Source of the DNA: Bradyrhizobium icense
GTDB taxonomy: Bacteria > Pseudomonadota > Alphaproteobacteria > Rhizobiales > Xanthobacteraceae
Assembly (NCBI RefSeq): GCF_001693385.1
Contig: NZ_CP016428.1
Location: 6,138,001-6,202,000, forward strand
Direction: 5' to 3'
Length of the DNA: 64,000 nt
Position numbers and translations under genes: made by a program. The notes under the pieces were generated by a model. It made no database searches, had not been told where the DNA came from, and worked only from the letters and a program-made list of their open reading frames with translations. Shown piece by piece: positions 34,309-54,033 of the stretch (positions within the stretch are counted from its first letter, which is position 1; each line of letters opens with the position of its first letter).

Positions 34309-34341
34309 GGCGGACCTCCCGGAATTTGTTGGGAGGAAATA

Positions 34342-34382: not shown

Positions 34383-34383
34383 T

Positions 34384-35408: not shown

Positions 35409-36179
35409 TCAGCGATGCGGATCCGGATACACCAGGCTGCGCCAGCCGCTTCGATCGAACGGTGCCCATTCGCCTTCCGGCTGCGCCAGGCGATCGGCCA
35501 CTGCGTACACGACCGCCGGGTGGTGGCCCATGCCGCAATGGCTGCTCTCGACCTCGATGCTTTCGGAGGTTGCCGATGCCTTCTCCACGCAGCCCTGCCA
35601 GGCGCAGATGCCGTCGGTGCGGCTGAAGATTGCCGTGGTCGGCGCCGGCGGCGTACCTAAGAGCGACCCGCCGAAACGCGGATCCTCTTCGTCGGCGCGG
35701 CGGCCGCTCGCCATTTCGTAGACGCGCCAGGCGTTGGTCGCCTTCGGTCCCGACGCAAACGGGCTGCCGAGCGTGATCACCGAGCGCACGCGCTCCGGCA
35801 TCATCTTGGCTAGCTGGCGCGCGTAGAGACCGCCGAGGCTCCAGCCGACCAGCGAGACCTTGCGGCTGTGCGTGTCGTTCAACTCCTGCACCAGATCGAC
35901 CATGGCGTTCTGCACGCCGTGGCGCAGGCCGAGGTTGCGCCCCTGACGCCAGCCGCTGACGGCATAGCCGCGTGTACGCAGGAAGCTGCGCAGCGGCCGC
36001 GTCGAGGTGTCGGATGCAACAAGGCCGGGCAACACCAATACGGGATGCCCGTCGCCGCGTGGCGCCAGACTCAGCAATGGCAGTGCCCCAAGAAACGCGC
36101 CGAGTTCGTGAATGGCACGCCCCTCCAGAAGCATCAGGGTTCTGGAGGGTGGGGCAAGCGTCTGCGCAGCAACGGACAT
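35409..36179 (-). CDS. Alpha/beta hydrolase, lipase-like (paralogue 1)
   Basis: The 256-residue protein has the PGL/lipase-like segment HPVLVLPGLVASD and the nucleophile elbow VGWSLGGLYARQLA (Ser at about 113). An acidic segment (SRTDGICAWQ) and a late His follow, completing a plausible triad. It is clearly paralogous to the hydrolase at 48745-49551, sharing APRGDGHPVL, KVSLVGWSLGG, RVRSVITLGSPF and AVADRLAQ. No signal peptide is evident. Substrate unknown; an acyl ester is likely. The ATG has AGAGGAGA upstream. Confidence 0.85.
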   Translation of the reverse strand: MSVAAQTLAPPSRTLMLLEGRAIHELGAFLGALPLLSLAPRGDGHPVLVLPGLVASDTSTRPLRSFLRTRGYAVSGWRQGRNLGLRHGVQNAMVDLVQELNDTHSRKVSLVGWSLGGLYARQLAKMMPERVRSVITLGSPFASGPKATNAWRVYEMASGRRADEEDPRFGGSLLGTPPAPTTAIFSRTDGICAWQGCVEKASATSESIEVESSHCGMGHHPAVVYAVADRLAQPEGEWAPFDRSGWRSLVYPDPHR

Positions 36180-36365: not shown

Positions 36366-37652
36366 TCACAGCAGACGCAGCAGGTATTCGAGGGTGTACA
36401 GCGCCAGCCCTGCAAGCCCGCCGATCAGCGAACCGTTGAAACGGATGTATTGCAGGTCGCGGCCGATGTTGATTTCGATCAGCGAGATCAGTTGCCCCAT
36501 GTCCCACGACTTGACCTGGTCGGAGATGAAGGTCGAGACGCCGCTCTTCTGTTCGGCGATGACCGTTCGCAGCACGGCCACGAGGCCCTGGTTGATCTCG
36601 GTGCGCAGTTCGGCGTCGCCGGCCAGCGCCTCGCCCGCTTTCACGAACATGCGCACCAGATATTGCTCCAACACCTGCGTCTCGCCCGAGGCGCTGCGCT
36701 CGAAGAAAGAGCGCGTGTTCTCCCATATGTGACGCGCGAGCCCCGCCACTTCAGGACGCGCCAGCAAATCGCGCTTCAGTCCTTGGATGCGTTCGGCGTA
36801 GCTCGGATCGGTACCGAGGCGGTCGACGAAGGAGAGCACCATGCGATCGAACTCGCCGCGGAACGGATGCGCGGGATCGTTGCGGACTTCCTCGAAGAAG
36901 GCGGTGGCGGAAGCCACGATCTTGTTCACCAGGAACTTGTCGGCGCGATAGAGTTTTAAAAGCGTCGGCAATTCGGCGCGGATCTTTTCGCGGATCATCG
37001 CCATGGTTTCGGCCTGCGTCATCGTCTGATGCACCGCGCGCAGGATGTCATCGAGCAGGCCCGAATGCCGTCCCTCCTTGACGAAAGCGCGCAGCGTTCC
37101 GGCGGCAAGCGGCGCCAGATCGATCGCCATCAGTTGCGCCGTGATACGGCGGCTGACGAACGTCATCAGGCCGGAGGTCTCCGTCGCTGCCACCGCTTCC
37201 GGCAACAGCCGCAGCGCAAAGCGCGCGAGATCCTCGCTGCGCTTCTTGTCGCGCAGCCAGTCGGCGATGAATGCGCCGAAATCGATCTGCCGCAGCTTGG
37301 CCTCGACGGGGGCCGCTTCCAGGAAATGCTTCTCGATGAATTCGCCGAGCTTGTCGGCGATGCGGTGCTGGTTGCTCTGGATGATTGCCGTGTGCGGGAT
37401 CGGCAGTCCCAAGGGCCGCTTGAACAGCGCCACCACGGCATACCAGTCGGCGAGGCCGCCAATGGTGGCAGCCTCTGCAAAGGCCGCGATGAAGCCGAAC
37501 GCCGGATGCAGCGGCAGCAGTGCCCTTGCTGCGAGAAAGGTCGCGAATGTCGCCGCCAGCACCGACGTTGCCAGCAACTTCACGCGCCGCAACTCGGCGG
37601 CGCGGATGGCATCGCCCGGGCTGTCGATGATGAAGGTGGCGGGAAGGGTCAT
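36366..37652 (-). CDS. DUF445 family membrane-associated protein
   Basis: The 428-residue protein has the DUF445 pattern, with an N-terminal membrane helix (TSVLAATFATFLAARALL), the segment EAATIGGLADWYAVVALF, and then IPHTAIIQSNQHRIADKLGE. A long helical middle and a hydrophobic C-terminus (GSLIGGLAGLALYTLEYLL) follow. The function of the family is unknown. It is 186 bp upstream of the hydrolase on the same strand. The ribosome binding site at 37652 is weak. Confidence 0.88.
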   Translation of the reverse strand: MTLPATFIIDSPGDAIRAAELRRVKLLATSVLAATFATFLAARALLPLHPAFGFIAAFAEAATIGGLADWYAVVALFKRPLGLPIPHTAIIQSNQHRIADKLGEFIEKHFLEAAPVEAKLRQIDFGAFIADWLRDKKRSEDLARFALRLLPEAVAATETSGLMTFVSRRITAQLMAIDLAPLAAGTLRAFVKEGRHSGLLDDILRAVHQTMTQAETMAMIREKIRAELPTLLKLYRADKFLVNKIVASATAFFEEVRNDPAHPFRGEFDRMVLSFVDRLGTDPSYAERIQGLKRDLLARPEVAGLARHIWENTRSFFERSASGETQVLEQYLVRMFVKAGEALAGDAELRTEINQGLVAVLRTVIAEQKSGVSTFISDQVKSWDMGQLISLIEINIGRDLQYIRFNGSLIGGLAGLALYTLEYLLRLL

Positions 37653-37919: not shown

Positions 37920-38396
37920 TCAGGCGGTCTTAGAGTAGACCTTGGCAAAGTTGTCCTGTGCGGTCTTGGCGCTGTCGGCGACGAGCTTGCCGAGATAGTC
38001 GGTGGTGGCCTTCGCCCGCGAGACGAACACTTCGCCGCGCGCACGGACCAGGTCCGACTGGATCTGGGCGGCTTCGCTCAGCGACTTGGCCGAAGCGAGC
38101 TTGTCGATGCCGGCGAAGAACGCTTCCGCGTCCTGGTAAAGCGCCTGCTGGATGTTGCGGCTGATCTTGGCGGCCTCGGTGACCGAACCGGCAACGGCGG
38201 TCTCGATCGCAGCGGTCGCCTTCTCCGAACCGGCATAAAGGTCGGCGGCGCGCTCCTTGGCGGTCTCGGTCTGCTTCTTCACGAACTCACGGGCGGCCTC
38301 CGGAACTTCCAGGTTCTGGAGCTTGGTGAACGCCTCGGTGACGGGCGCGAAGGCATCCTTGACGGTGTTCAGCACGGAATTGGTTTCGGTGGTCAT
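37920..38396 (-). CDS. Phasin (Phasin_2 family), PHA granule protein
   Basis: The 158-residue protein is almost entirely amphipathic helix, with the phasin pattern FTKLQNLEVPEAAREFVKK, AADLYAGSEKATAAIE and NIQQALYQDAEAFFAGIDKLA. Such proteins coat polyhydroxyalkanoate granules. It is a single-gene unit with GGAGAG upstream of the ATG, a strong terminator, and palindromes in its promoter region. The PHA-synthase-like pair lies 0.8 kb away on the same strand, which supports the granule role. Confidence 0.9.
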   Translation of the reverse strand: MTTETNSVLNTVKDAFAPVTEAFTKLQNLEVPEAAREFVKKQTETAKERAADLYAGSEKATAAIETAVAGSVTEAAKISRNIQQALYQDAEAFFAGIDKLASAKSLSEAAQIQSDLVRARGEVFVSRAKATTDYLGKLVADSAKTAQDNFAKVYSKTA

Positions 38397-38632: not shown

Positions 38633-39226
38633 CTAGTGCTGGACCGCCCCGGGCAGGCCATAGGCCTCAAGCTGTGCCCGAACCTGCGCCACATTGTGCC
38701 CGAGTACGACGATGTCGTGCTTCTTTCCGTCGACGTCCCGGACATGGTCGCGCAGCAGCGCCTCGGCCCTGAAACCAATGCTCTCGAACAACGCGATCGC
38801 CGCCTGCTGGTCCACGGTCATCTGCACCGACAGCTTTTCCAGCCCGGCGCCCAAGGCCAAGGCGAAGGTCTCCTGCGACAACGCCCGGCCGACCCCCTGC
38901 CCGCGGACATCAAGCGACACCACCATGCGGATCTCGCCGACATGGGGCGACCAGGAATGCGGGTCGCGCACCAGCGTGCCGCAGCCGACCACCGAACCGC
39001 CCCTCACTGCCAGCAGGCTGACGATCTGGCCGCGCTCGATCTCGTTGACCCAGGCCGAGAGCACTTTGGGCTGGCTGATGTTGCGCGGCAGGAACAGCAG
39101 ATCATGGGTCGGGAGGTTTTGCGCAAATGCCAGCACCGCGGCTTCGTCCGCCCGCCCCATCATGCGGAATTCGATGTCGCCGGCATCGGTCTTGACGTGG
39201 CGCGGATAGGAACGTGTCTCGCTCAT
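38633..39226 (-). CDS. GNAT family N-acetyltransferase
   Basis: The 197-residue protein has a GNAT core: EIRMVVSLDVRGQGVGRALS carries the acetyl-CoA pyrophosphate loop (RGQGVG), and the end of the fold shows AIALFESIGFRAEALLRDHV. The acceptor is unknown. Its ATG overlaps the PhaC stop by 4 nt (ATGA), so it is translated together with the PHA-synthase-like pair. That link suggests acetylation of a granule protein or of the synthase, but this is conjecture. Confidence 0.88.
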   Translation of the reverse strand: MSETRSYPRHVKTDAGDIEFRMMGRADEAAVLAFAQNLPTHDLLFLPRNISQPKVLSAWVNEIERGQIVSLLAVRGGSVVGCGTLVRDPHSWSPHVGEIRMVVSLDVRGQGVGRALSQETFALALGAGLEKLSVQMTVDQQAAIALFESIGFRAEALLRDHVRDVDGKKHDIVVLGHNVAQVRAQLEAYGLPGAVQH

Positions 39227-40305
39227 GTTGATCTCTTACCTAGCCAGGAATCCAGTTTCGGCCACAGCCGCTTGATCGCGTTGGCACCGGCGACGAGGCT
39301 GACGTGACCGCCCTTCAGCATCACCTCTTCCTTGTCTGATGAGCCGACCTTGGCGATCAGGTGCTTGGCCGCGTCATAGGGCACGATGTGATCGTGCTCG
39401 GCGACCGCATGCAGGATCGGCACCGTGATCCTGGAAATATCCGCCGCGCGGCCGCCGACCGACATGGTGTCGTTGTAAAGCTTGTTGTCCCACATCAGGT
39501 TCTTGGTGATGTCGCGGAAGTACTCGCCAGCCAGCGGCAGCGTATCGGTCGCCCAGCGGTCGAACATCCGGTACGACTTCACGAACTCGTCGTTCCAGAT
39601 GTTTTCCCATAATTGCACCTGGCTGACGGTGCGCGAGGCCGGCCGCAGCATTTCGAACGAGGACAGGATCATTTCGGGCGGCACATTGCCGACACTATCG
39701 ACGAGGCGATCGACGTCGAAATAGCGGCGATCGGAAAAGTTCTGGAACAGCTTCATCTCGCGAAAATCGATCGGCGTGGTGAAGCAGATCAAATTCTTCA
39801 TCGGCCCGTCGTTGAAGATCGAGCCGTACAGGAGCGATAGCACGCCGCCGAAGCAGTAGCCGATCACGGTAACGTCCTGCTCGCCGGAATCCTGCTGTAC
39901 GCGGCGAACGCAATCGGGGATGAAGTCGAGGACGTAGTCCTCCATCCGCAACGATTTTTCTTCCGGCTTGGGCGCGGTCCAGTCCAGCATGTAGACGTCG
40001 TAGCCGCGCTTCAACAGAAACTCGATGAAGCTCTGACCCGGCACCATGTCGAGGATGTAGCCGCGGTTGGTGGTGGCCATCACGATCAGGATCGGCACGC
40101 GGTAGATTTCATCCGCGATCGGCCGGTAGTGATAGAGGTTCATGGTGCCGCGGACGGCCAGAATGTCCTTTGGCGTCGAGCCGAGCGACGGGCCGGAGGT
40201 AGAAAAATATTCGACGCCCTTGATGCTGCGCTGGATCGCGCGCTGCACCTCGGACTGGACCCGCTCCGAAATGGAAGCGAAATCAAGACCCGCGGGCGCG
40301 TTCAT
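39223..40305 (-). CDS. phaC: Class III-type PHA synthase catalytic subunit (PhaC-like)
   Basis: The 360-residue protein matches the short class III/IV PhaC subunit in length and motifs. The lipase-like box is GYCFGG with Cys151, Asp305 lies in VAEHDHIVPY and His334 in KGGHVSLVAG. These correspond to Cys149/Asp302/His331 of the Allochromatium vinosum enzyme. The family polymerises hydroxyacyl-CoA to polyhydroxyalkanoate at granules. It starts at an ATG with GGAGAGGAGAA upstream and overlaps the PhaE-like gene and the GNAT gene by 4 nt each. Class I PhaC of about 600 residues is the usual rhizobial form, so this is an additional synthase. Confidence 0.9.
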   Translation of the reverse strand: MNAPAGLDFASISERVQSEVQRAIQRSIKGVEYFSTSGPSLGSTPKDILAVRGTMNLYHYRPIADEIYRVPILIVMATTNRGYILDMVPGQSFIEFLLKRGYDVYMLDWTAPKPEEKSLRMEDYVLDFIPDCVRRVQQDSGEQDVTVIGYCFGGVLSLLYGSIFNDGPMKNLICFTTPIDFREMKLFQNFSDRRYFDVDRLVDSVGNVPPEMILSSFEMLRPASRTVSQVQLWENIWNDEFVKSYRMFDRWATDTLPLAGEYFRDITKNLMWDNKLYNDTMSVGGRAADISRITVPILHAVAEHDHIVPYDAAKHLIAKVGSSDKEEVMLKGGHVSLVAGANAIKRLWPKLDSWLGKRST

Positions 40306-40682
40306 TTCTCCTCTCCCTCCGACGGCGGACGCTTCGTGCGTGGCGGCCGCGGCGTGCCGTAGCCGCTCTCCAGCGACAGCGAATTATGATGCACCTGATG
40401 CAACAGCGCCTTGATCTCGTTGAGCTGGCCCTCGATCGCCTGCAGCCGCTCGGCCATGCCGACGAGCTGCGCCCGGCTCGGCAGGTTCATTGCCAGCAGG
40501 TACTTCTCCATCAGTTCGCCGAGCTGCTTCTGCGCGCCTGCGCTGACGCCGCCTACTTGATTCATCATTTTTGAGAATTCGGGCGATGCCATCGCCTGGT
40601 TGGCGAAGGAGTTGAACCCCTTTTCCATCTCCCCAAGCATGGTCTGCCAGATCACGGCAGGATCGTTGCCTTTGTCGGCCAT
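40302..40682 (-). CDS. Short PhaE/PhaR-like PHA synthase subunit
   Basis: From the ATG at 40682 (GAGAGGG upstream) the protein has 126 residues. Residues 61-70 read YLLAMNLPSR, followed by a predicted coiled coil (MAERLQAIEGQLNEIKALL), which is the conserved C-terminal pattern of PhaE. PhaE is about 350 residues and PhaR of Bacillus about 200, so this is a minimal form. The C-terminus is a basic Pro-rich tail (PRPPRTKRPP). The 4-nt overlap with phaC supports an obligate partner role in activating the synthase. Confidence 0.82.
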   Translation of the reverse strand: MADKGNDPAVIWQTMLGEMEKGFNSFANQAMASPEFSKMMNQVGGVSAGAQKQLGELMEKYLLAMNLPSRAQLVGMAERLQAIEGQLNEIKALLHQVHHNSLSLESGYGTPRPPRTKRPPSEGEEK

Positions 40683-40844: not shown

Positions 40845-41759
40845 ATGCTTGCCCATCAGCCGCCCCAGATCGCCCGCGCCAACGGCATCGACATTTGCTA
40901 CGAGATTTTTGGCGATCCGGCCGCGGAACCGATGCTCTTGATCATGGGGCTCGGCGCCCAGATGATCCATTGGGACGACGATTTCTGCCGCCAGCTCGCC
41001 GCGCGCGGTTTTCGCGTCATCCGTTTCGACAACCGCGACATCGGCAAGTCCTCGCACCTTTCCGGCGGCAAGCGGCTGACACCGTTCGAACTGTTAAAGC
41101 TGCGGTTCCTGAAGATCCCGGTGGCTGCACCCTACAAACTGATCGACATGGCCAAGGATACCGTCGGCCTGATGGATGTGCTCGGCATCAAATCGGCACA
41201 TCTGGTCGGTGCCTCGATGGGCGGCATGATCGCCCAGGAAGTCGCGCTGTCGTTTCCGCAGCGGGTGCGTTCACTGACCTCGATCATGTCGACCACTGGT
41301 AACCCCAAGCTACCGCCACCGACGCGGGAGGCGAGCGCCGTGCTAATGGCGCCGCCGCCGACCACGAAGGAAGAATATTTCGACCGGTTCGCCAAGACCT
41401 GGAAAGTGCTGCGCGTCGGCTCGTTCCCGGAAGACGAGGCGCTCGACCCTGCCCGCGCCGCCCGCACCTATGAACGCGGCCTCAATCCGAACGGCGTCGG
41501 CCGGCAGTTGCGGGCGGTGCTCGCCTCCGGCAGCCGCAAGGAACGGCTGCATCACCTGAAGATTCCGACGCTGGTCATCCACGGCACCGTCGATCCGCTG
41601 GTGCGCCCCGAAGGCGGCAAGGACACCGCAGCGTCAATCCCCGGCGCAAAGCTGCTGATGATCGAAGGCATGGGCCACGCGCTGCCGATCCCGATGTGGC
41701 CCCAGATCATCGGCGCGATCGCCGGGCACGCGCAGGGTGCCGCGGCAAAGGCGGCGTGA
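40845..41759 (+). CDS. Alpha/beta hydrolase
   Basis: The 304-residue protein has the oxyanion region LLIMGLGAQMIHWDDDF, the elbow GASMGGMIAQEVA (Ser at about 125), the acid in HGTVDPLVRPEGG and His in EGMGHALPIPMW. It belongs to the group of esterases that includes hydrolases annotated near aromatic and polyester degradation. It is divergent from the PHA-synthase pair across 162 bp. A PHA depolymerase or oligomer hydrolase role is possible from context only. Confidence 0.88.
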   Translation: MLAHQPPQIARANGIDICYEIFGDPAAEPMLLIMGLGAQMIHWDDDFCRQLAARGFRVIRFDNRDIGKSSHLSGGKRLTPFELLKLRFLKIPVAAPYKLIDMAKDTVGLMDVLGIKSAHLVGASMGGMIAQEVALSFPQRVRSLTSIMSTTGNPKLPPPTREASAVLMAPPPTTKEEYFDRFAKTWKVLRVGSFPEDEALDPARAARTYERGLNPNGVGRQLRAVLASGSRKERLHHLKIPTLVIHGTVDPLVRPEGGKDTAASIPGAKLLMIEGMGHALPIPMWPQIIGAIAGHAQGAAAKAA

Positions 41760-41920: not shown

Positions 41921-42595
41921 TCAACTCTTCGTTGCGATCCAGATCACGTGACGCACGCCGCGGCCTTTGCCGGTGGCGCGGATGTTGACTTCATTGACGT
42001 CGAAGCCCGCGCCGCGAAGGCGTTTTGCGAACGCGGGATTCGGCCCCGAAGACCATACGGCAAGGGCGCCGCCCGGTCGCAGCGCGGCGTGCGTCGCATG
42101 CAGGCCAGCAGCGTTGTAGAGCGCATCATTGCCCTCACGAGTAAGCCCTTCCGGTCCATTGTCGACATCGAGCAGAATGGCGTCGAACTTCGAACGCTGC
42201 GACCGGATGATCTCGGTGACATCCGTCTCTCGAATGCTCACGCGCGAATCGTCCAGGCTGTCGCCAAAAAGTTCTGCCATCGGGCCTCGGGCCCAACTGA
42301 TCACCGCCGGCACCAGCTCCGCCACCACGATCTGCGCTTCATTGCCGAGCGCGGCGAGCGCCGCACGCAGCGTAAAGCCCATGCCCAATCCGCCGATCAG
42401 CACATGCGGTTTTGCGACCTTTTCGATCTTCTTCGCAGCGAGCGTCGCGAGCGCCGCTTCCGAGCCGGACAGGCGGCTGTTCATCAGTTCGTTGCTGCCG
42501 AGCTTGATCGAGAACTCCTTGCCGCGGCGCATCAGGCGGAGTTCGCTGCCGGTGCCAGGAATGCGGGCGGTGTCGAGCTTTTCCCAGGGAATCAT
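41921..42595 (-). CDS. Spermidine synthase-like methyltransferase-fold protein
   Basis: The 224-residue protein from the ATG at 42595 has a Rossmann-type SAM-binding region: VLIGGLGMGFTLRAALAAL carries the glycine-rich loop and IVVAELVPAVISWARG the acidic strand end. FDAILLDVDNGPEGLTREGN and LRPGGALAVWSSGP follow. It resembles the spermidine synthase/methyltransferase group, but the substrate is unknown. It is last in the P450-containing series, 72 bp after the P450 gene, with a small hairpin between. The ribosome binding site is weak. Confidence 0.82.
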   Translation of the reverse strand: MIPWEKLDTARIPGTGSELRLMRRGKEFSIKLGSNELMNSRLSGSEAALATLAAKKIEKVAKPHVLIGGLGMGFTLRAALAALGNEAQIVVAELVPAVISWARGPMAELFGDSLDDSRVSIRETDVTEIIRSQRSKFDAILLDVDNGPEGLTREGNDALYNAAGLHATHAALRPGGALAVWSSGPNPAFAKRLRGAGFDVNEVNIRATGKGRGVRHVIWIATKS

Positions 42596-42625
42596 GCGGA
42601 GGGTTGTAGCATGCGCTCTCAATAG

Positions 42626-42666
42626 CCGTCGTCTCTGCGTTCGCATTGCGTTCGCAGTGACGACGG
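42626..42666. repeat. Solo hairpin related to family A ends
   Basis: CCGTCGTCTCTGCG pairs with CGCAGTGACGACGG around TTCGCATTGCGTT. It looks like a lone family A arm. It lies between the P450 stop and the methyltransferase-like gene and may serve as a terminator or attenuator. Confidence 0.6.
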
Positions 42667-42667
42667 T

Positions 42668-45600
42668 TTATCCGCCAGCCCAAACGTCCAGCACGTAGCG
42701 GTTCTTCGTGCCGAGATCGTCGATCCAGTGCAGGCCGGCTTCGGCGTCGGCACCCGACTTTTCGCGATAGATTGCGACCAGTGCGGCCTTGACGTCGGGC
42801 TCCATCTTGCCGCCGTCGCCGCAGACATATACGATCGCGCCCTGCTCGATCAGGCTCCAGACGCGGTCCTTTTGCGCCGTCACCTGGTGCTGCACATAGG
42901 TCTTCGGTCCCTCGGCACGCGAGAACGCGGTGTGCAGCGCGGCGATGCCGTCGTTGGCGAAGGCCTTCAATTCATCCGCATAAAGGAAATCCTGCTCGGG
43001 ATGACGGCAGCCGAAGAACAGCATTGCAGGTCCCAGCTTGGCGCCCTGCGCCTTGCGGTGCGCGCGCTCCTGCAGAAAGCCGCGGAACGGCGCCAGCCCC
43101 GTGCCGGGACCGATCATGATCACGGGTTGGGCCGCATCATCCGGTAGCCGGAAGCCGGCCTTGGTCTCGCGAATGGTTGCATGCACGGTATCGCCGACCC
43201 GGCGTCCGGCGAGATAGTTCGAGCATACGCCTTTGTAGACGCCGCGTCCTGAGCTTGCCGGCGCCTCCACCACGCCGACGGTGACGCTGCAGCGTGCCGG
43301 ATCGGAAGAAGGCGACGACGAGATCGAATAGTACCGCGGCGCCAGCAGCGACAGCATTTCCAGGTAGGCATGGAACGGCAGTTCGCAGGCCGGATGCTCT
43401 TCCAAGAGGTCGAACACCGATTTGCGTTTGGCCAGGACGTCCGAGCGATAGAGCTCCGTAGACGCGCCGTCGTCGCCGACATAGGCGAGCAGTTTTGGCT
43501 TGGTAACGGGACAGCGCGTGTGCTCCGACATGATCTGGATCTGCTTGCGGGTCGCGATCTGCTGCAACTCGACGAACTCGGTCAATAACCGCCCGACCGA
43601 GACGGCATCGCCGACCGGCAATTGCGCGCGGCGGCCTTCCGCGACATGAAGTCTGATCTGGTCGGCCGGCAAGAAGCCGAAACGGCGCGCGACGGAATCG
43701 ACCAGCGCTGGATCGTTGCGCGGCACCACACTGAGATGGTCACCGACGCGATAAGCGATGCCGGGCGGCAATTCCACCTCGATGTGGCGGGTCGAGCGGT
43801 CGGAACGACTGGCGCCGGTCTTGTTCTGCAGTTCCGAATTGACCAGCACCTTCATCGGCGCGACGCCGCCTTGCGCCACGATGGTGTGCACGGCCGATGG
43901 CGCCACCGGCTCGATCGAATAAAGCGGCGCGTCGTCGGCGCTGCGGGCGAACCCGGAATCGACGCCCAGTTCCTTCATCGCCGCGGGTGCTGCCGCCGCG
44001 AACCATTTTTCGAACTGGCCGTCGAGATCGCTGCGGGCATCGCCCTCGCCGCGGGCGTAGAGGCTGCGCGCCCCATGTACCGCCAACCCCTCGTCGATCA
44101 GGCGCGGCACGGATTGATAGGTCGCGGCCCAGTCGCTGTTGCCGCAGCCGAACACGGCGTAGCGCACCTTGGCGAACGCATCCTTGGGCAGGCCGCTGTC
44201 CAGCCATTTGACGAACTGCGTGGCGTTATCGGGGGCGGCGCCATTATAGGAGGCGCAAAAGATCATCAGCGCGCCCTGCTCCGGCAGCTTGCCGACATAA
44301 TCATCGAGTGCGCCGAGTTTTGTGGCGAAGCCGTTGACCTCGGCAAGATCAGCCACCCGCGTCGCCAGCTCTTCCGCGGTGCCGAGGTTTGAACCATAGA
44401 GCACCAATAGCGGCGTGTTGTGGCCCGGACGGGTCCGCGCCTGCGGCGCCGCCGCGCTCGAGGCCGCGGCCGCGACAGCGGTACGGCCGGCGAAGACGCC
44501 ACGGTCCTTGTCACCGCGCGGCCGCACCTTGATCTTGAAACCGTCCGGCTTGACCGTCAGCGTTTCCTTCAAGTGCATCTGGTAGCGATGCACATCGACC
44601 AGCTTGAAGCGCTGCAGGATCATGCCGATCGCCAGTGCCGCCTCGTGCATCGCAAAGCCACGGCCGATGCAGGCACGCTGGCCGTTGCCGAACGGCTTCC
44701 AGGCGTTTATCGGTCGCTTGGCCTCGGCCTCACGGCTGAAATTCTCGGGATCGAACACGTCCGGGTTCGGACCCCAGACGCTGGGGTCGCGGTGCAGCGC
44801 CATCACCAGCACGGTGATGAACGTATTCTTCTTCAGCTTGTACTTACCCCCGCCGATGGCCTCGTCCTGAAGCGGCGTAATGCCGTAGGCGGGTGCCGGC
44901 GGCCACAGCCGCAGCGCTTCCTTCAAGATCTGCGTGATATAGGTGAGCTGCGTGACCTGCTGATAAGTCGGCCTGGCGTTGATATCGGGTCCGAGCACCC
45001 GGTCGACTTCCTCATAGGCCTTCTTCAGCACCTCGGGATGCTTCAGCAGCGCGTAGATGGTGCACGAGAGCAGTCCGCTGGTGGTCTCGTGGCCCGCAAT
45101 CAGAAAGGTATTGATCTGGTAGCGGATGTTGATGTCGTCGAGCTGCTCGCCGGTTGAGCGGTCGATGCCGGTCATCATGGCGCCCAGCATATCCTTCTTG
45201 GCCTCAGTGGCTTCCGCACTACCGCGGCGCTCCGCGATGATCTCGTCGACCATCTTGTTCATGAACACGACATCCTGCGCCAGCGTCTTGCGCCGCTTCT
45301 GCATCCAGAGATTTTCCAGCGGCAGGCCGCGGGTCATCATGATGGTCTCTAGCGAGCGCACCAGCGATTCCACGAACGGATGGTAGTCGCGGCGGTAGAA
45401 TGAGTTGAAGCGGTAATCGAAGCCGCACAGCCCGATTGTATCGAGCGTCAGCGCCGTCATGTCGTGCACGACGTCGATTTCCTCGTCGGCGTTGAGCCGC
45501 TCCCATTTCTTCACGAGCTGCTCGGCGATGTCTACCATGCTCGGGTGATAGGACTGCATCGCGCGGTTGCCGAACGGTTGCAGCAGGATGTTGTGCGCCT

Positions 45601-45907
45601 TGCTCCAGTTCGGCTCTGTCGTGTCGGCGGTGAACAGCCCGTCGCCGCCGACCGCGCGGACGCGGCGCAGCGAGCCGCGCACCGTCTTGTCGAAACGCTT
45701 CTCGTCGGACAGTTCGTCGATCAGATCGTGGCCGGCGACGATGACGATCGGCGCGCCCATCATGTCGAGCCAGAAGATCGGCCCGAGCTCCTTGGAGAGC
45801 TTGACCAGATGCTGCACCGGCGCGTTGGGATCCAGCGACAGCATGTTGCCGACGACGGGCTTCTTCGGCGGATGCGGGATCGGACTGAGTTTGTTGCTGG
45901 ACGCCAT
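42668..45907 (-). CDS. Self-sufficient cytochrome P450/NADPH reductase, CYP102 (P450 BM3) type
   Basis: The 1079-residue fusion has a P450 domain (1 to about 455) with the I-helix motif AGHETTS (271-277), the ExxR motif at 330-333 and the heme site FGNGQRACIG (Cys413). The CPR part follows with an FMN domain (LLVLYGSNLGTAEELA), the FAD motif RYYSISSSP and the NADPH region GPGTGLAPFRGFLQ. It hydroxylates hydrophobic substrates using NADPH without separate partners. Compared with BM3, the segment holding Arg47 and Tyr51 reads GAPIVIVAGH, so the fatty acid carboxylate anchor is missing. BM3 Phe87 is kept (DGLFTAD). It sits downstream of an epoxide hydrolase and a WS/DGAT gene. Confidence 0.95.
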   Translation of the reverse strand: MASSNKLSPIPHPPKKPVVGNMLSLDPNAPVQHLVKLSKELGPIFWLDMMGAPIVIVAGHDLIDELSDEKRFDKTVRGSLRRVRAVGGDGLFTADTTEPNWSKAHNILLQPFGNRAMQSYHPSMVDIAEQLVKKWERLNADEEIDVVHDMTALTLDTIGLCGFDYRFNSFYRRDYHPFVESLVRSLETIMMTRGLPLENLWMQKRRKTLAQDVVFMNKMVDEIIAERRGSAEATEAKKDMLGAMMTGIDRSTGEQLDDINIRYQINTFLIAGHETTSGLLSCTIYALLKHPEVLKKAYEEVDRVLGPDINARPTYQQVTQLTYITQILKEALRLWPPAPAYGITPLQDEAIGGGKYKLKKNTFITVLVMALHRDPSVWGPNPDVFDPENFSREAEAKRPINAWKPFGNGQRACIGRGFAMHEAALAIGMILQRFKLVDVHRYQMHLKETLTVKPDGFKIKVRPRGDKDRGVFAGRTAVAAAASSAAAPQARTRPGHNTPLLVLYGSNLGTAEELATRVADLAEVNGFATKLGALDDYVGKLPEQGALMIFCASYNGAAPDNATQFVKWLDSGLPKDAFAKVRYAVFGCGNSDWAATYQSVPRLIDEGLAVHGARSLYARGEGDARSDLDGQFEKWFAAAAPAAMKELGVDSGFARSADDAPLYSIEPVAPSAVHTIVAQGGVAPMKVLVNSELQNKTGASRSDRSTRHIEVELPPGIAYRVGDHLSVVPRNDPALVDSVARRFGFLPADQIRLHVAEGRRAQLPVGDAVSVGRLLTEFVELQQIATRKQIQIMSEHTRCPVTKPKLLAYVGDDGASTELYRSDVLAKRKSVFDLLEEHPACELPFHAYLEMLSLLAPRYYSISSSPSSDPARCSVTVGVVEAPASSGRGVYKGVCSNYLAGRRVGDTVHATIRETKAGFRLPDDAAQPVIMIGPGTGLAPFRGFLQERAHRKAQGAKLGPAMLFFGCRHPEQDFLYADELKAFANDGIAALHTAFSRAEGPKTYVQHQVTAQKDRVWSLIEQGAIVYVCGDGGKMEPDVKAALVAIYREKSGADAEAGLHWIDDLGTKNRYVLDVWAGG

Positions 45908-45937
45908 TGTCGAAATGTCTCCCCTGCCCTGTCTCAA

Positions 45938-46024
45938 CCGTCATCACGAGCGAAGCGAAGCAATCCATCGCTCGGCGAAAAGAAAGAATGGATTGCTTCG
46001 TCGCTGCGCTCCTCGCAATGACGG
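45938..46024. repeat. Family B palindromic repeat
   Basis: The ends CCGTCATCACGAG and CTCGCAATGACGG are inverted. Inside, GAAGCAATCCAT and ATGGATTGCTTC are inverted copies. It has the same plan as 32925-33007. It fills most of the 131 bp between the epoxide hydrolase and the P450 gene on the same strand. Confidence 0.7.
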
Positions 46025-46038
46025 CTTGTTATGCGGAC

Positions 46039-47034
46039 CTACCCAAATCTTTTCCTGCGCCACTCGATCAGCTTGCTACTGACCTCGTCCGGCTTTTCCT
46101 GCTGCGTCCAATGGCCGCTGTCGCGCACGAGATATTTTTCGAGATCGGGAACCAGCCGCTCCATGCCCTCGGTGGCCGACGGCGGCAGCACCGCGTCGTT
46201 CTCGGCCATGATCATCAGCGACGGCACACGCACGGTATGGTCAAGCCCTTCCGAGCGCTGCCAGTTACGGGAAAAATTGCGGTACCAGTTGATGCCGCCG
46301 GTGAAGCCAGTCTTGGCGAAGGTGTCGACGAATACCTGCTTTTCCTCCGGCGACAGGATCGGCGTGCGCGGATCGTGCTTGGCATCGTAATTCGCGATCA
46401 TCTGTGGAAACGCCAGATTGAGTCGCGCCGATGCGCCGACGCCGGCAATCGGCTGCTCCTCCGGCGTACCCGCGGGCCGCGCCACCGGCTTGCGCATGAA
46501 GGCGTCGAAGGTCTGCTCGACCCGGCTGCCGAAAATCCTGTCAGGTTCGCGGCCAGGATCCTGGAACTGCACAATGTACATTTTGTCGCCGAAGCGCTGC
46601 CGAAACAGCTCGATCGGATCCGCCGGCATGCGATCCCAATGCGGGGTGTTGACGCCGATGACGCCGGCGACGCGATCAAGGTGGCGCAGCGGCATCTGCC
46701 AGACGACGAAGCCGCCCCAGTCGTGGCCGACGAAGATCGCCTTGTCGATCTGCAGATGATCGAGCAGCCCGACGAGATCGCCGGTCAGGTGTTCCATATC
46801 GTAATCCTCGACCGGCTCGGGCCGATCGGTCGCGCCGTAGCCGCGCTGATCCGGCGCAATCACCCGGATGCCGGCTTCGCTCAGGGCCTTGATCTGGTGA
46901 CGCCAGGAAAACGCAAGCTCCGGCCAGCCATGGCAGAGAATGACCGGCGGCTTGTCGGACTTCGGCCCCGCCTCGTAGTAACCCATGCGAATACCGTTCA
47001 CGTCGGCGAACTGCAGCGGTGGCATCTCAATCAT
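46039..47034 (-). CDS. Epoxide hydrolase-like alpha/beta hydrolase
   Basis: The 331-residue protein has the motif CHGWPELAFSWRHQ (HGxP oxyanion motif) and the nucleophile segment FVGHDWGGFVVWQ, where Asp rather than Ser is the nucleophile, as in soluble epoxide hydrolases and haloalkane dehalogenases. The HGWP motif and a cap-domain Tyr region (GGINWYRNFSRNW) favour epoxide hydrolase, as does the late DSGHWTQQEKP histidine. It would convert epoxides to diols. It lies 9 bp after the WS/DGAT gene, so the two are co-transcribed, and 131 bp before the P450. Confidence 0.9.
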   Translation of the reverse strand: MIEMPPLQFADVNGIRMGYYEAGPKSDKPPVILCHGWPELAFSWRHQIKALSEAGIRVIAPDQRGYGATDRPEPVEDYDMEHLTGDLVGLLDHLQIDKAIFVGHDWGGFVVWQMPLRHLDRVAGVIGVNTPHWDRMPADPIELFRQRFGDKMYIVQFQDPGREPDRIFGSRVEQTFDAFMRKPVARPAGTPEEQPIAGVGASARLNLAFPQMIANYDAKHDPRTPILSPEEKQVFVDTFAKTGFTGGINWYRNFSRNWQRSEGLDHTVRVPSLMIMAENDAVLPPSATEGMERLVPDLEKYLVRDSGHWTQQEKPDEVSSKLIEWRRKRFG

Positions 47035-47043
47035 GGCAGGCCC

Positions 47044-48588
47044 CTATTCAGCAGCGCTGGTCATGCTCGGCGGCGGCGCGAACGCCGCCTCCAGCGCTTC
47101 AAACTCGACCGGAAGCATGTCGCAGAGAACCTGGACGTGCGGAATGATGTTGGCGCCGGCAATGAAGCCGAAATCGAGCTGGTCGCGGTAGCTCTGCACG
47201 GTGATGTTGAGCGCGATGCCGTGCGTCGAGATCGACACCGGGAAGATGTGCAGCAACTCGGCACCGGCCGCATACAGCGTCTGCCGCGGCCCGGGCACGT
47301 TCGATACGGTGATGTTGGCTGCCGGCGGCAGCACGTCGGAGAGGTTGGAGCGGCTGTAGAGCAACGCAAGGATCTGGGTCACGATCGGCGCGCCCAGCAT
47401 CGAGAGGTTGGAGACTTGCGGCATCAGTGCACGCAGCGGATGCGACATCTCCTTCGACTTGGTGGATTGCGCGATGATGGTTTCCAGCCGTGTCTTGGGA
47501 TCGTCGACATCGGTGGCGATCGCGCAGATCATGCCGAACACCTGGTTATTGGCATCGGCATTGCCCTCCTCGCGCAGCGAGATCGGAACCGCGGCGGTCA
47601 GGGACTTGTTGGGCAGCGCCCCCTGGCTGATCAGATAGCGGCGCACCACGCCCGATGACAGTGCCAGCACGACGTCGTTGAGCTTGCCGCCGGACGCCTT
47701 CGCTACCGCCTTGGCGCGCGACAGCGAGATCGAGGTGCCGGCGAAGCTGCGTTCCGAGGAGATCGTCTTGTTGAGGATGGTCGGCGGCGAGGCCATGCTG
47801 GCCAGGCTGTCGCGCGACTTCGGATCCGAAACCTTGCCGACCACGTCGGACACGCTCTTGAGCATGGTCGGAATGCTGCTGGCGAACTTCACCGCGCTCT
47901 CGATCTGGAACATGGCGTTGTCGAACAGGATCGAACCGAGATCGCTTTTTCCCGAGCGCGGCAGTTCGAGACTCTTTGGCGCCGCCTTCGGGTCGAATGG
48001 CTGGGTCCAGAGCTGCTGGTAGGAATCGATCAGGTTGGCGGCGATGTCGCGCGGCTCCGGCGCGACCTTGCGCGCCGTCGGCGGATCGACCTGACGCGGC
48101 ACCGGCGTGATGTCATAGATCATGCTGGTGAGCGCGGCGCCGGCGCCGCCGTCGATGCAGGCATGGTGCATCTTGGAATAAAGCCCGATCTCGTTGTCCT
48201 TCATGCCTTCGAAGACATAGAACTCCCAGAGCGGGCGGGCGCGGTTGAGCAGCTTCGCATGCATCCAGCCGACGATGCGCTCCAGCGTCGTGCGGTCGCG
48301 CGGCTCCGGCAGGCTGGCGCGGAAGATGTGGCGGTCGATGTCGAACTGGTCGTCCTCGACCCAGGAGGGATGATCGATGTCGAGCGGCGCCTTCTCCAGG
48401 CGGGCTTTCAGAATCGGCGCGACGTGCAGCCGCGAAGCGATCATCGCCTTGAACTCTTCGAAGAAGTCGCCCTCGTAGCCTTCGGGCAGGCGGAAGATCG
48501 CCATGCTGCCGACATGCATCGGCATTTCCGGGGTTTCCAGATACAGAAACGACGCATCCAGCGAAGACAGCTTCTTGGCGTCCGCCAT
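47044..48588 (-). CDS. Wax ester synthase / diacylglycerol acyltransferase (WS/DGAT)
   Basis: The 514-residue protein has the WS/DGAT catalytic motif HHACIDG (residues 141-147) and the family pattern DASFLYLETPEMPMHVG at the N-terminus. The C-terminal domain includes ITVSNVPGPRQTLYAAGA. It esterifies acyl-CoA to long alcohols or diacylglycerol, giving neutral lipid inclusions. The start has GGGAGGAG five bases upstream. It is followed by the epoxide hydrolase and preceded by the second lipase-like gene. A full-length WS/DGAT is uncommon in rhizobia known for PHA storage; it may produce wax esters or other acyl esters. Confidence 0.93.
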   Translation of the reverse strand: MADAKKLSSLDASFLYLETPEMPMHVGSMAIFRLPEGYEGDFFEEFKAMIASRLHVAPILKARLEKAPLDIDHPSWVEDDQFDIDRHIFRASLPEPRDRTTLERIVGWMHAKLLNRARPLWEFYVFEGMKDNEIGLYSKMHHACIDGGAGAALTSMIYDITPVPRQVDPPTARKVAPEPRDIAANLIDSYQQLWTQPFDPKAAPKSLELPRSGKSDLGSILFDNAMFQIESAVKFASSIPTMLKSVSDVVGKVSDPKSRDSLASMASPPTILNKTISSERSFAGTSISLSRAKAVAKASGGKLNDVVLALSSGVVRRYLISQGALPNKSLTAAVPISLREEGNADANNQVFGMICAIATDVDDPKTRLETIIAQSTKSKEMSHPLRALMPQVSNLSMLGAPIVTQILALLYSRSNLSDVLPPAANITVSNVPGPRQTLYAAGAELLHIFPVSISTHGIALNITVQSYRDQLDFGFIAGANIIPHVQVLCDMLPVEFEALEAAFAPPPSMTSAAE

Positions 48589-48605
48589 ATTCTCCTCCCG
48601 CAGTA

Positions 48606-48630
48606 GAAAAACGCGGCGCCTTGGCGGCGC
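48606..48630 (-). terminator. Short hairpin with U-tract between hydrolase 2 and WS/DGAT
   Basis: On the minus strand GCGCC-GCCAA-GGCGC runs into CGCGTTTTTC, which gives a 5-bp stem plus five U. It lies upstream of the WS/DGAT ribosome binding site and could attenuate read-through from the hydrolase gene. Confidence 0.35.
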
Positions 48631-48744
48631 TTCTGGCGTCTGGAATGTCTTTGTTATTGGAGCATATCCGAAAGCCGACAGCCATCCCGCATCAATTGCA
48701 GGGCGGGATCTTTCGCGATCATGCCCTTAGCTCAGGGCGTGGAT

Positions 48745-49551
48745 TCAGGATTGTGCATTTTCGGGGGGCCCATAGGCAATGGCAAATGGTCCTGATCGGT
48801 CAAAATGCTTAAATTCGCCCTCTGCCTGCGCCAGGCGGTCGGCTACTGCCCACAATGCTGCGGGGTTGACGCCGAGCCCGATGTGGCTGGCAAGGTGCAC
48901 CTCGATGTTTTCGGCGGTTGCGGAGGGGCGCAACAGGCTGGTGTGCCAGTTCACAATGCCGTCGGTCCGGGAATAGATCGATGTCGCCGGCACCGGCAGG
49001 TCGCCGGCAATGGCCAAGCGGATCTCCGGATTGTCGTCGACGGTTTCCCCCGACAGCACCTCATAAAGCCGCGTGGCGTTGGTCGCCCGGATATCGCTGG
49101 TAAACGGGCTGCCGAGCGTGATCACCGAGCGCACCATGTCCGGCATCTGCAGTGCGAGATCGCGCGCATAGACGCCGCCGAGACTCCAGCCGACCAGGCT
49201 GACCTTGCGGCCGGTCGATTCATGGATGCGCCGCAGCAGGTCGCGCAACGCAGCCCGCTTGGAAGCGACGCCGCCGAAGTTGCGGCCCATGCTCCAAGCA
49301 TAGGTGTCGTAGCCAAGCTCTTTCAGATAGCGCCGCATCGGCGCCATCGATAGATCGCTGGCGAGAAAGCCCGGCAGCGCCAGCACCGGATGCCCGTCGC
49401 CCCTCGGCGCACGCATCAAGAGCGGCGACAGCAAGAGGCTCGAATTCAGTTCGAACAGCGCCCGCGTCTCGGCCAGCATCAGAAACAGGCTTGGCGGCCG
49501 AAGCCGCTGCTCTTCTGTTGCCGCGCCGCCTTCCGCGATGGCCACTCTCAC
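48745..49551 (-). CDS. Alpha/beta hydrolase, lipase-like (paralogue 2)
   Basis: Started at the GTG at 49551, which overlaps the stop of the DUF6489-type gene (GTGA), the protein has 268 residues. Motifs are HPVLALPGFLASD, VGWSLGGVYARDLA (nucleophile Ser), YSRTDGIVNWH (acid) and HIGLGVNPAALW (His). It is a clear paralogue of the gene at 35409-36179. No signal peptide. The neighbouring WS/DGAT suggests an acyl ester substrate, such as mobilisation of neutral lipid. A longer frame to 49776 overlaps the DUF6489-type gene and is a shadow. Confidence 0.85.
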   Translation of the reverse strand: MRVAIAEGGAATEEQRLRPPSLFLMLAETRALFELNSSLLLSPLLMRAPRGDGHPVLALPGFLASDLSMAPMRRYLKELGYDTYAWSMGRNFGGVASKRAALRDLLRRIHESTGRKVSLVGWSLGGVYARDLALQMPDMVRSVITLGSPFTSDIRATNATRLYEVLSGETVDDNPEIRLAIAGDLPVPATSIYSRTDGIVNWHTSLLRPSATAENIEVHLASHIGLGVNPAALWAVADRLAQAEGEFKHFDRSGPFAIAYGPPENAQS

Positions 49552-49799
49552 TTGTCCTTCTTGGTCATGCCGCCGAGCCCGGCCATGGTCACGAACATAT
49601 CCTGGAATCGCTCGGCGATCTTGGGATCGAACGTGAACCAACTCTGGATCAGCGATTCCGGCGAGACTTTTTCGATGTTGGCCATCACCTGCTGCTGCAT
49701 CTTGTCCATCACGGCGGTCTGCATCGGCGAGACGTCGGGCAGTCCGAAGAACTGCCTGGCCTCCAGCGGCGTGCAATCGATTTCGACGTTAACTTTCAT
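49548..49799 (-). CDS. Small DUF6489-type protein
   Basis: The 83-residue protein starts with MKVNVEIDCTPLEARQFFGL, followed by PDVSPMQTAVMDKMQQQV and a helical middle, and ends in a short basic tail. I recognise the pattern from small alphaproteobacterial proteins of the DUF6489 type, of unknown function. The ATG has AAGGAG upstream, an almost ideal ribosome binding site. It overlaps the hydrolase gene by 4 nt, so the two probably work together; it may be a granule- or partner-binding protein like a small phasin, but nothing in the sequence proves this. Confidence 0.8.
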   Translation of the reverse strand: MKVNVEIDCTPLEARQFFGLPDVSPMQTAVMDKMQQQVMANIEKVSPESLIQSWFTFDPKIAERFQDMFVTMAGLGGMTKKDK

Positions 49800-49900: not shown

Positions 49901-51154
49901 TCAACCAAAGCGTTCGATGGCAAACGGCCTGACATCGGCAAACGGGGTCTCGCCGGTCATCATTTCGGCCAGCAGGCGGCCGGTCGCCGGTCCAAGCGTC
50001 AGGCCGTGGTGCTGGTGGCCGAAATCGAACCACAGCCCGCCATGGCGGGGAGCCTTGCCGATGACCGGCAGCATATCCGGCAGACAGGGCCGTGCGCCCA
50101 TCCAGGGCTTGGTATCGACCGGTTCGCCCAGCGGGAACAGCCCGTGCGCCCGCGGCAACGCCCGCTCGACCTGGATCGGCGTTGGTTGTGCATCGCGGTG
50201 GGCAAACTCGGCGCCGGTCGTGAGCCGAATGCCGCGGTTCATCGGCGCCAGGAGATAGCCGAGATCGGTGTCCAGCACGGGATGATGCAAGACCGCATTG
50301 CCGCGCGGCTTGAGGTGCAGATGATAGCCGCGCTTGACCTGAAGCGGGATCGAATAGCCGAGCGGCGCGAGGATCTGGTCGGACCACGGCCCCATCGCTA
50401 CCACCACGTCGCGCGCCGTAATGGTGCCTTCCAGCGTGGCCACCCGCCAGCGTCCGCTCGCTTGTTCGAGCGTTCGGGCATCGCCGACCAGATAGCGCCC
50501 ACCCTTGCGGCCGAACAGCGTTGCATAGGCCTTGGTCAGCCCACCGGGATCGGGCACGAATCCCGGCGCGGGAAAATGGATCGCGCCGCTGAAATCGCCG
50601 GTCAGATGCGGCTCGCGCGCGATGATCGCAGGCCGATCCAGCACCTCGCCGGCGACGCCGTGCTGGCGTGCGCGCTCGAGATCCCGCACCGCATTCGCAA
50701 GCGTCGCCTCGGAGCGAAACAGCTTGATCCAGCCGGTCCGCCGCAACAGCTCCGGCACATTGGCTTCCGCAATCAGCGCCTCATGCTCGATCAGGCTGCG
50801 CTGGATCAGCGGCAATTCGGCCATTGCGCTGTGCAGCGCACGTTCCGGTGAAGAGGCGAGGAAATATCGGGTCAGCCACGGCAGGAAGGCCGGCAAATCC
50901 CTGAAATGGTAACGCACCTGCGGTGCGCGGAGAAACGCGTAGCGCAGGATCTGGCCCACGTCCCGCGGAAACATATAGGGAAAGACCGAAGCGCATTCGA
51001 TCAGCCCGCCATTGCCGTAACTGGTTTCCTCGCCGGCTGTGTCGTGGCGGTCGATCAGAACCACGTTGCGACGGCGTTTCTGCAGATGCAAAGCGGCGCT
51101 GACGCCGACCATGCCCGCACCCAGGACGAGAACGTCGGCCTTCAGTTCCGCCAT
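49901..51154 (-). CDS. D-amino acid dehydrogenase-like FAD oxidoreductase (DadA type)
   Basis: The 417-residue flavoprotein starts with the FAD motif DVLVLGAGMVGVSAALHLQ and the following VVLIDRHDTAGEETSYGNG, typical of DadA. FAD-domain repeats (GATVVVAMGPWSDQ-like VVVAMGPWSDQILAPLGY) and the C-terminal GHQHHGLTLGPATG are present. It oxidises D-amino acids to 2-oxo acids, passing electrons to the membrane chain. It is divergent from the peptide transporter operon across 189 bp, which suggests a role in the use of D-amino acids released from peptides. Confidence 0.88.
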   Translation of the reverse strand: MAELKADVLVLGAGMVGVSAALHLQKRRRNVVLIDRHDTAGEETSYGNGGLIECASVFPYMFPRDVGQILRYAFLRAPQVRYHFRDLPAFLPWLTRYFLASSPERALHSAMAELPLIQRSLIEHEALIAEANVPELLRRTGWIKLFRSEATLANAVRDLERARQHGVAGEVLDRPAIIAREPHLTGDFSGAIHFPAPGFVPDPGGLTKAYATLFGRKGGRYLVGDARTLEQASGRWRVATLEGTITARDVVVAMGPWSDQILAPLGYSIPLQVKRGYHLHLKPRGNAVLHHPVLDTDLGYLLAPMNRGIRLTTGAEFAHRDAQPTPIQVERALPRAHGLFPLGEPVDTKPWMGARPCLPDMLPVIGKAPRHGGLWFDFGHQHHGLTLGPATGRLLAEMMTGETPFADVRPFAIERFG

Positions 51155-52939: not shown

Positions 52940-52952
52940 TCGGGCTCGACAC

Positions 52953-52989
52953 AGTCCCGGTGGCTTGACGGCTTCCGGGACTTTTCGTT
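52953..52989 (+). terminator. Attenuator-like terminator after the substrate-binding gene
   Basis: AGTCCCGG pairs with CCGGGACT (8 bp, 14-base loop) and is followed by TTTCGTT. It lies in the 101 bp between the binding protein and the first permease. Partial termination here is a common way to give more binding protein than permease. Confidence 0.7.
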
Positions 52990-53040
52990 ACAGGCGACAG
53001 CGACGCCCGCCGCCGCATCAGAGAGCAGTGAAAGGAATAC

Positions 53041-54021
53041 ATGCTCGCTTTCACTCTTCGCCGCGCTATCCAGGCCATCGGCGTCATGATCGCGGTCGGC
53101 GTCATCGCGTTCTCGATGTTCCGTTTCGCCGGCGATCCCGTCAACCAGATCGTCTCATTGGACACGCCGGCCGCCGAGCGCGAGGCGGTGCGCAAGTCGC
53201 TTGGCCTCGACGATCCCGTGCCGGTGCAGTTCGCCCGCTACTTCGCCAATGCCGCGCAGTTCAAGTTCGGGGTCTCCTATCAGTTCCGTCAGCCGGTTTC
53301 GAACCTGTTGATGGAACGAATGCCGGCGACGCTGGAGCTTGCCGCCTGCGCCACCGTTCTTGCCATGGTGTTCGGCATCCTGATGGGGGTCTATTCGGCG
53401 CTGCGGCGCGATACGATTCTGACAAAATTCTTCCAGGCGGTATCGCTGATCGGAATCTCGCTGCCCACGTTCCTGATCGGCATTCTCCTGATCTATCTGT
53501 TTTCGGTGACGCTGGGCTGGCTGCCTTCATTCGGCCGCGGCGACGTGGTGCGGATCGGGTGGTGGACCACCGGCCTGCTCACGCTTTCCGGCCTCAAGGC
53601 GCTGATCATGCCATCGATTACGCTGGGCCTGTTCCAGATGACCTTGATCATGCGGCTGGTGCGCGCTGAAATGCTCGAAGTGCTGCGCACCGATTACATC
53701 CGCTTCGCCCGCGCCCGCGGCCTGACCACGCGCGCGATCCATTTCGGCCACGCGCTGAAGAACACGCTGGTTCCCGTCATCACGGTCGCCGGGCTGCAGT
53801 TTGGCTCAGTTATTGCATTTGCCATCATCACCGAAACCGTCTTCCAATGGCCGGGCATGGGTTTGTTGTTCGTGCAAGCCGTGCAAAATGTCGACATCCC
53901 GATCATGGCCGCCTACCTGCTGATGGTCTCGCTGATCTTCGTCACTATCAATCTGGTGGTTGATATCCTCTACACCGTCGTCGATCCGCGCCTGCGCTCG
54001 ACCATCCGCCGTCCGGCATAA
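53041..54021 (+). CDS. dppB: Peptide ABC transporter permease, DppB type
   Basis: The 326-residue permease has an N-terminal DppB/OppB pattern (TLRRAIQAIGVMIAVGVIAF) and about six membrane helices. The binding-protein-dependent transport signature EMLEVLRTDYIRFARARGL is at about residues 208-226. It forms the channel with the DppC-type protein. The ATG is preceded by AAAGGAATAC. The Dpp name describes the family; the actual substrate is not known. Confidence 0.93.
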   Translation: MLAFTLRRAIQAIGVMIAVGVIAFSMFRFAGDPVNQIVSLDTPAAEREAVRKSLGLDDPVPVQFARYFANAAQFKFGVSYQFRQPVSNLLMERMPATLELAACATVLAMVFGILMGVYSALRRDTILTKFFQAVSLIGISLPTFLIGILLIYLFSVTLGWLPSFGRGDVVRIGWWTTGLLTLSGLKALIMPSITLGLFQMTLIMRLVRAEMLEVLRTDYIRFARARGLTTRAIHFGHALKNTLVPVITVAGLQFGSVIAFAIITETVFQWPGMGLLFVQAVQNVDIPIMAAYLLMVSLIFVTINLVVDILYTVVDPRLRSTIRRPA

Positions 54022-54033
54022 GCGAGCGATCCG

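Follow-up and report, generated by a model that had tools for sequence, protein, structure and literature searches.

Cytochrome P450 BM3, a CYP102A enzyme, is among the most engineered enzymes, and we know of no settled natural role for it. Here we analyze a block of genes on the minus strand of Bradyrhizobium icense (genome of 8.32 Mb in one contig) in which a CYP102-type P450 gene lies next to genes for a soluble-type epoxide hydrolase (EH) and a wax ester synthase/diacylglycerol acyltransferase (WS/DGAT). The block occupies positions 41921-49799 of a stretch of 64,000 nucleotides (contig NZ_CP016428.1, positions 6,138,001 to 6,202,000), hereafter the window. The order of these genes is conserved in relatives, EH and P450 form an inner pair, and CYP102 and WS/DGAT genes are repeatedly associated in other bacterial families. 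On balance, we lean toward reading the block as an oxidative extension of a storage-lipid locus.

Judging from the available text of the papers on it, the closest precedent for a monooxygenase linked to WS/DGATs is the mymA operon of Mycobacterium tuberculosis, in which seven genes include a monooxygenase and two WS/DGAT (tgs) genes (PMC13234193, PMC2698117). That monooxygenase is a Baeyer-Villiger enzyme; the present locus differs in that its oxygenase is a P450 and in that it belongs to another phylum. The mymA operon also has a lipase and an acyl-CoA synthetase, and we know of no epoxide hydrolase in it. WS/DGAT clusters of Pseudomonadota, as far as the available text describes them, contain lipase-like, alpha/beta hydrolase, phasin or polyhydroxyalkanoate (PHA) genes (PMC10351704). 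The companions found in the window are of the same kinds; the difference is that the main text of that paper, in the form available, lacks the words P450 and epoxide. A first-pass annotation of the window knew of no described pathway that joins a self-sufficient P450, an EH and a WS/DGAT in one operon. The open-access literature, which leaves most subscription papers outside it, agrees, with neither a cluster of P450, EH and WS/DGAT nor one of CYP102 and wax ester synthase found in it. Nevertheless, mymA is a precedent for WS/DGAT genes linked to a monooxygenase, though one of another kind.

A conserved block with an inner pair

Gene order was compared in the home clade, for which we took the best 80 of 241 loci and used the 65 with full flanks for order counts. 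WS/DGAT, EH and P450 were consecutive and co-directed in all 65 loci, more than expected by chance. A gene for a DUF6489 protein was also present in 65/65 and a lipase-like gene in 62/65, so that five genes (DUF6489, lipase-like, WS/DGAT, EH and CYP102-type P450) make up the conserved block. In the Tardiphaga locus L106, DUF6489 lies on the opposite side of the block. Across these loci the gap between WS/DGAT and EH is 9-135 bp (median 14), that between the lipase-like gene and WS/DGAT 50-174 bp (median 76.5) and that between EH and P450 34-221 bp (median 141). Because nearly all of them come from Bradyrhizobium, the home-clade loci are not independent.

The first-pass annotation had correctly placed six genes on the minus strand and had treated them as one set. 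The sixth, a methyltransferase-like gene, is present in 49 of the 65 loci; its absence from the other 16, together with the finding of a homologue only in L184 among the distant loci fetched, rules out a fixed six-gene operon, and we regard this gene as loosely attached to the block. A DAO gene upstream (49901-51154) was likewise rejected as a member, being present in 36/65 loci. In the window the gaps are 156 bp between the lipase-like gene and WS/DGAT, 9 bp between WS/DGAT and EH (as first reported), 131 bp between EH and P450 and 21 bp between P450 and the methyltransferase-like gene. Neighboring genes of the block may be co-transcribed, and two of the gaps, those of 131 and 156 bp, are long enough to contain additional promoters. 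A palindromic repeat with arms like CGAAGCAATCCA, which occurs four times in the window where 0.47 matches would be expected, was found at 45956-46000 and 32947-32990; one copy occupies much of the EH-P450 gap.

An even draw of 149 genomes from the family, in which the P450 was counted at 75% identity at least, gave 28 genomes with the P450. An EH was present in 27 of these 28, within 248 bp of the P450 in 24 genomes and, by coordinates, about 2 kb away with one gene between in three. The WS/DGAT orthologue was carried by 24 of the 28. Among the 121 genomes without the P450, EH was found in five, a full-length WS/DGAT orthologue in none and a 77% fragment in one. In three genomes of two genera an acyl-CoA synthetase gene lies between EH and P450 (L172 and L173 by the Pfam AMP-binding domain, L174 by similarity), and in G151, G199 and G202 the two genes were kept whereas the neighboring WS/DGAT was lost. 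EH and P450 are therefore the tightest, inner unit of the block, one that outlasts the loss of WS/DGAT and persists even with an acyl-CoA synthetase gene inserted. EH orthologues without a CYP102 were observed in G103, G104, G108, G172 and G198 (L179-L183). In L178 (G166) the P450 frame reads 1426 aa and the EH is lost, with lipase and DUF6489 homologues nearby.

The P450 gene (42668..45907, minus strand, start ATG at 45907) encodes the four Pfam domains of a self-sufficient enzyme, namely P450, flavodoxin, FAD and NAD, and thus resembles CYP102A enzymes such as BM3 and CYP102A6 in its fused P450, FMN, FAD and NAD domains. BM3 positions were placed by alignment offsets. The heme Cys, the I-helix Thr (T268 position) and the Phe at the F87 position are kept in 87/87 EH-linked P450 rows. 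At the position aligned to A28 the window P450 has a His; the available text of PMC9281120 lists CYP102A6 of Bradyrhizobium diazoefficiens with the same residue at position 28. The comparison with CYP102A6 covered this one position, and the window P450 is a likely candidate for its orthologue. We found nothing in the open-access literature on CYP102A6 activity or on Bradyrhizobium wax esters.

The EH gene (46039..47034, minus strand) has as its top PDB sequence matches EphA of M. tuberculosis (5cw2, 231.7 bits) and mammalian soluble EH. With EphA and the C-terminal domain of the mammalian enzyme it shares the HGxP motif, the nucleophile Asp, two cap Tyr, the acid Asp and the His; it differs from them in being encoded beside a CYP102. 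All six positions (D105, Y153, Y251, D280, H308 and the HGxP His) are kept in 94/94 aligned sequences. The protein carries the residues of true epoxide hydrolases, and hydrolysis of fatty epoxides is predicted for it. WS/DGAT (47044..48588, minus strand) matches PF03007, PF06974 and TIGR02946, the last with 412.5 bits, above the cut-off of 309.95. Its HHxxxDG motif corresponds to residues 141-147, with both His, the Asp and the Gly kept in 88/88 aligned sequences, and a predicted role in wax ester or triacylglycerol synthesis fits both family and motif. Among the best 80 of 241 loci, its nearest named relatives are from Bradyrhizobium species, with B. murdochi at 98%.

Of the names given to the six genes by the first-pass annotation, DUF6489, WS/DGAT, EH and CYP102 P450 stand, whereas the lipase label is weak and the methyltransferase-like one falls below threshold. 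The lipase-like alpha/beta hydrolase gene (48745..49551, minus strand, with the motif GWSLGG and a GTG start) gives Pfam matches under the cut-offs and only weak, short PDB matches, the top one at 25.7 bits. The 4-nt overlap with DUF6489 that had been described (GTGA, 49548-49551) is borne out provided that the lipase-like gene starts at GTG 49551, a start that agrees by eye with the N-terminus of its paralogue at 35409-36179. DUF6489 itself (49548..49799, minus strand, 83 aa) is identified by PF20099 at 53.5 bits (cut-off 23.6); AlphaFold2 predicts a helical protein at low confidence (mean predicted local distance difference test score of 56), a model that neither favors nor discounts a phasin or another known fold, and the open-access literature yielded nothing on it. 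The spermidine-synthase/methyltransferase-like gene (41921..42646, minus strand) reaches 20.9 bits with PF01564, under the cut-off of 22.9. A defense role was sought for these last two genes with PADLOC, and neither gave a match.

CYP102 and WS/DGAT genes beyond the home clade

Class and phylum draws of 385 and 398 genomes were searched with the window P450 at E 1e-140 or better. Together with the family draw, they make up the unselected samples, which gave 16 further CYP102 genomes; eight of these also have a WS/DGAT. The two genes were less than 6 kb apart in five of the eight (G085, G088, G564, G786 and G920) and apart in G754, G757 and G937. The sample was then extended to the families of three linked genomes, with WS/DGAT sought in 59 more genomes, for a total of 75 further CYP102 genomes. 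Both genes were present in 54, and in 41 of these 54 they lay within 6 kb of each other, when 0.2 would be expected by chance. This tally left out 7/51 CYP102 genomes of family f92, whose P450s are fragmentary, and the second P450s of G1354, G1355 and G1358. By family, f92 had 30 linked genomes, two with the genes apart (the P450 being less than 2 kb from a contig end in both) and 12 without WS/DGAT; the corresponding numbers were five, eight and one in f38, four, one and one in f214, none, two and one in f24, and two, none and six in f1.

Other genes of the storage locus accompany the linked pairs. Among the distant loci fetched, which for f92 were 16 regions out of 33 loci, homologues of the lipase-like pair were counted by eye in 26/27 linked against 0/21 unlinked loci and homologues of DUF445, encoded near the window block, in 17/27 against 0/21, two of the 21 unlinked loci being short or lying at the edge of a contig. 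Several linked distant loci also encode phasins (PF09361 or PF05597). Of the 12 main-type f92 loci fetched, nine encode an acyl-CoA synthetase that is 65-70% like the L173 enzyme.

The history of these genes indicates more than one origin of the association. The WS/DGATs from f92 group in a single clade, whereas the P450s adjoining them fall in two CYP102 clades, and a constraint holding the f92 WS/DGAT-linked P450s together was rejected (approximately unbiased (AU) test, p 1.2e-12). Genome G1150 (another class; f214), of 2.6 Mb and 99% complete, carries on one strand of a 196,814 bp contig genes for a lipase-like protein, WS/DGAT, alpha/beta hydrolase, phasin, a TetR regulator, EH, P450 and an isochorismatase-like protein. 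The EH and P450 of this genome are 70% like their counterparts in the window, and since it has the EH it belongs to the window's P450 clade; its WS/DGAT resembles that of f214 (63%) more than that of the window (41%). Grouping the G1150 P450 with f214 was rejected (p 2.3e-4), as was grouping its WS/DGAT with Nitrobacteraceae (p 1.1e-4). The trees were built by a quick method and gave long-branch warnings, the clades for the AU tests were picked after viewing them, and the P450 tree left out seven f92 rows and all but seven of the 76 home-clade P450 rows. The conflict between the P450 and WS/DGAT trees bears directly on the view that the block is nothing but inherited synteny, a neighborhood without functional coupling. 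Most of the 65 loci do come from one genus, in which any gene order may persist. However, an association assembled repeatedly, and found in 41 of 54 genomes against 0.2 expected, makes this explanation very improbable.

Several observations weigh against an oxidative branch of storage-lipid metabolism. The 41/54 total is over-sampled around genomes already linked and weighted to f92; 13 of the 54 genomes have the two genes apart, with the P450 less than 2 kb from a contig end in two of the 13, and no WS/DGAT was found in 21 of the 75 CYP102 genomes. In the main f92 clade the P450 gene and the WS/DGAT gene are encoded on opposite strands, facing each other, which makes a neighborhood and not an operon. 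A second f92 type of CYP102, about 46% identical to the main one, is the sole CYP102 in 12 genomes in which no WS/DGAT was found. Since the EH is found in a single P450 clade only, the wider association between CYP102 and WS/DGAT does not depend on it. Other CYP102-like genes occur in unrelated contexts (L193, L194, L196, L207, L208 and L211), and of 15 plasmid records of CYP102s the three examined had no WS/DGAT nearby. Finally, R47 and Y51 of BM3, which we take to be its carboxylate clamp, have no counterpart in the EH-linked P450s. The Arg/Tyr clamp was found in 0/87 rows: the R47-aligned position has A in 66, S in 17, T in two, K in one and Q in one (A52 in the window), and the Y51-aligned position I in 68, V in 17 and F in two (I56 in the window). 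BM3-style fatty-acid binding is thus not assured, although we treat the clamp as a trait of BM3 and not of the whole CYP102 family.

Among side observations on these genes, three f92 genomes carry both CYP102 types, and on a plasmid of Bradyrhizobium sp. CB82 (L246) a CYP102 relative of 49.7% lies amid IS110 transposases with no WS/DGAT nearby.

The altered clamp positions and the unrelated contexts would fit a model in which the P450 and EH used another lipid-like substrate (a hopanoid, terpenoid, hydrocarbon or plant-derived oxylipin) and merely shared a chromosomal zone with storage genes. We consider this improbable, because the acyl-CoA synthetase gene between EH and P450, together with the repeated association with WS/DGAT, points to acyl chains.

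Storage genes adjoining the block

The first-pass annotation had seen in this region a storage-lipid island, a view upheld by the order kept in relatives, by the genes that adjoin the block and by the other families that place CYP102s beside WS/DGAT, lipase-like and phasin genes. Downstream, next to the block, are a PhaE-like PHA synthase subunit (40302..40682; PF09712 at 21.0 bits, under the cut-off of 25.7), a putative class III type PHA synthase PhaC (39223..40305; TIGR01836 at 316.7 bits, under the cut-off of 365.3) and, overlapping phaC by 4 nt, a GNAT acetyltransferase (38633..39226; PF00583 at 50.6 bits), homologues of which occur near phaC in several linked loci. They are followed by a phasin (37920..38396; PF09361 at 47.4 bits, cut-off 24.9), a DUF445 protein (36366..37652; PF04286 at 357 bits) and a second lipase-like gene (35409..36179), the paralogue of the lipase-like gene of the block. 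All of these are on the minus strand. On the plus strand, an alpha/beta hydrolase (40845..41759) has a 40% relative within the gene run of a locus from another class, L227. A storage-lipid role for the block is well supported.

Just past the storage island (33316-35253) are a PaaA/PaaC-like phenylacetate catabolic protein and a PaaX-like regulator. On the other side, genes assigned by eye to a peptide-type ABC transporter (a solute-binding protein and two permeases) lie on the plus strand at 51344-55005 and are found beside the block in most relatives.

Possible chemistry and natural role

As to the chemistry, the families of the encoded proteins suggest a route. The lipase-like enzymes and WS/DGAT would release and re-esterify the acyl chains of a neutral lipid, which would be held in inclusions, as the phasins and PHA enzymes encoded nearby suggest. 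The CYP102 P450 may oxidize an unsaturated or long acyl chain, in part at least to an epoxide; according to the available text of PMC8936499, CYP102A1 is able to epoxidize unsaturated fatty acids. The EH, with its catalytic residues in place, would open the epoxide to a vicinal diol. The oxidized chain could then be activated and esterified again, or degraded, and the acyl-CoA synthetase whose gene separates EH from P450 in two genera is a candidate for the activation step.

The same pair of enzymes could serve fatty-acid detoxification, the role usually guessed for BM3. In that case P450 and EH would convert toxic unsaturated free fatty acids, lipase-released or external, to hydroxy and dihydroxy acids that are less membrane-active, with WS/DGAT and acyl-CoA synthetase sequestering the rest. 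The persistence of EH and P450 where the WS/DGAT orthologue was lost (G151, G199 and G202) would fit such a function, as would the TetR regulator adjoining the pair in G1150. On the other hand, detoxification alone does not explain why CYP102s are repeatedly placed by WS/DGAT, phasin and lipase-like genes in families without the EH, and the carboxylate-clamp positions are changed. We therefore hold it to be a possible but less favored explanation, and continue to prefer an oxidative branch of a storage-lipid locus, with the diol formed by P450 and EH either re-esterified or degraded. A broader proposal, rather unlikely in our estimation, is that the CYP102 family in Proteobacteria serves storage-lipid metabolism, in-chain hydroxyls (diols where the EH is present) being esterified by WS/DGAT to lipids like estolides or fatty acid esters of hydroxy fatty acids in phasin-coated inclusions.

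The presence of CYP102 relatives beside fat-storage genes in several bacterial groups hints at a natural job for this enzyme family. That CYP102 genes came to lie next to WS/DGAT, lipase-like and phasin genes repeatedly and independently offers a concrete and testable answer to the question of what BM3-family enzymes do in nature, and the pair of EH and P450 would correspond, in bacteria, to the mammalian route from epoxygenase to soluble EH. For Bradyrhizobium, the analysis points to the genes and lipids worth examining.

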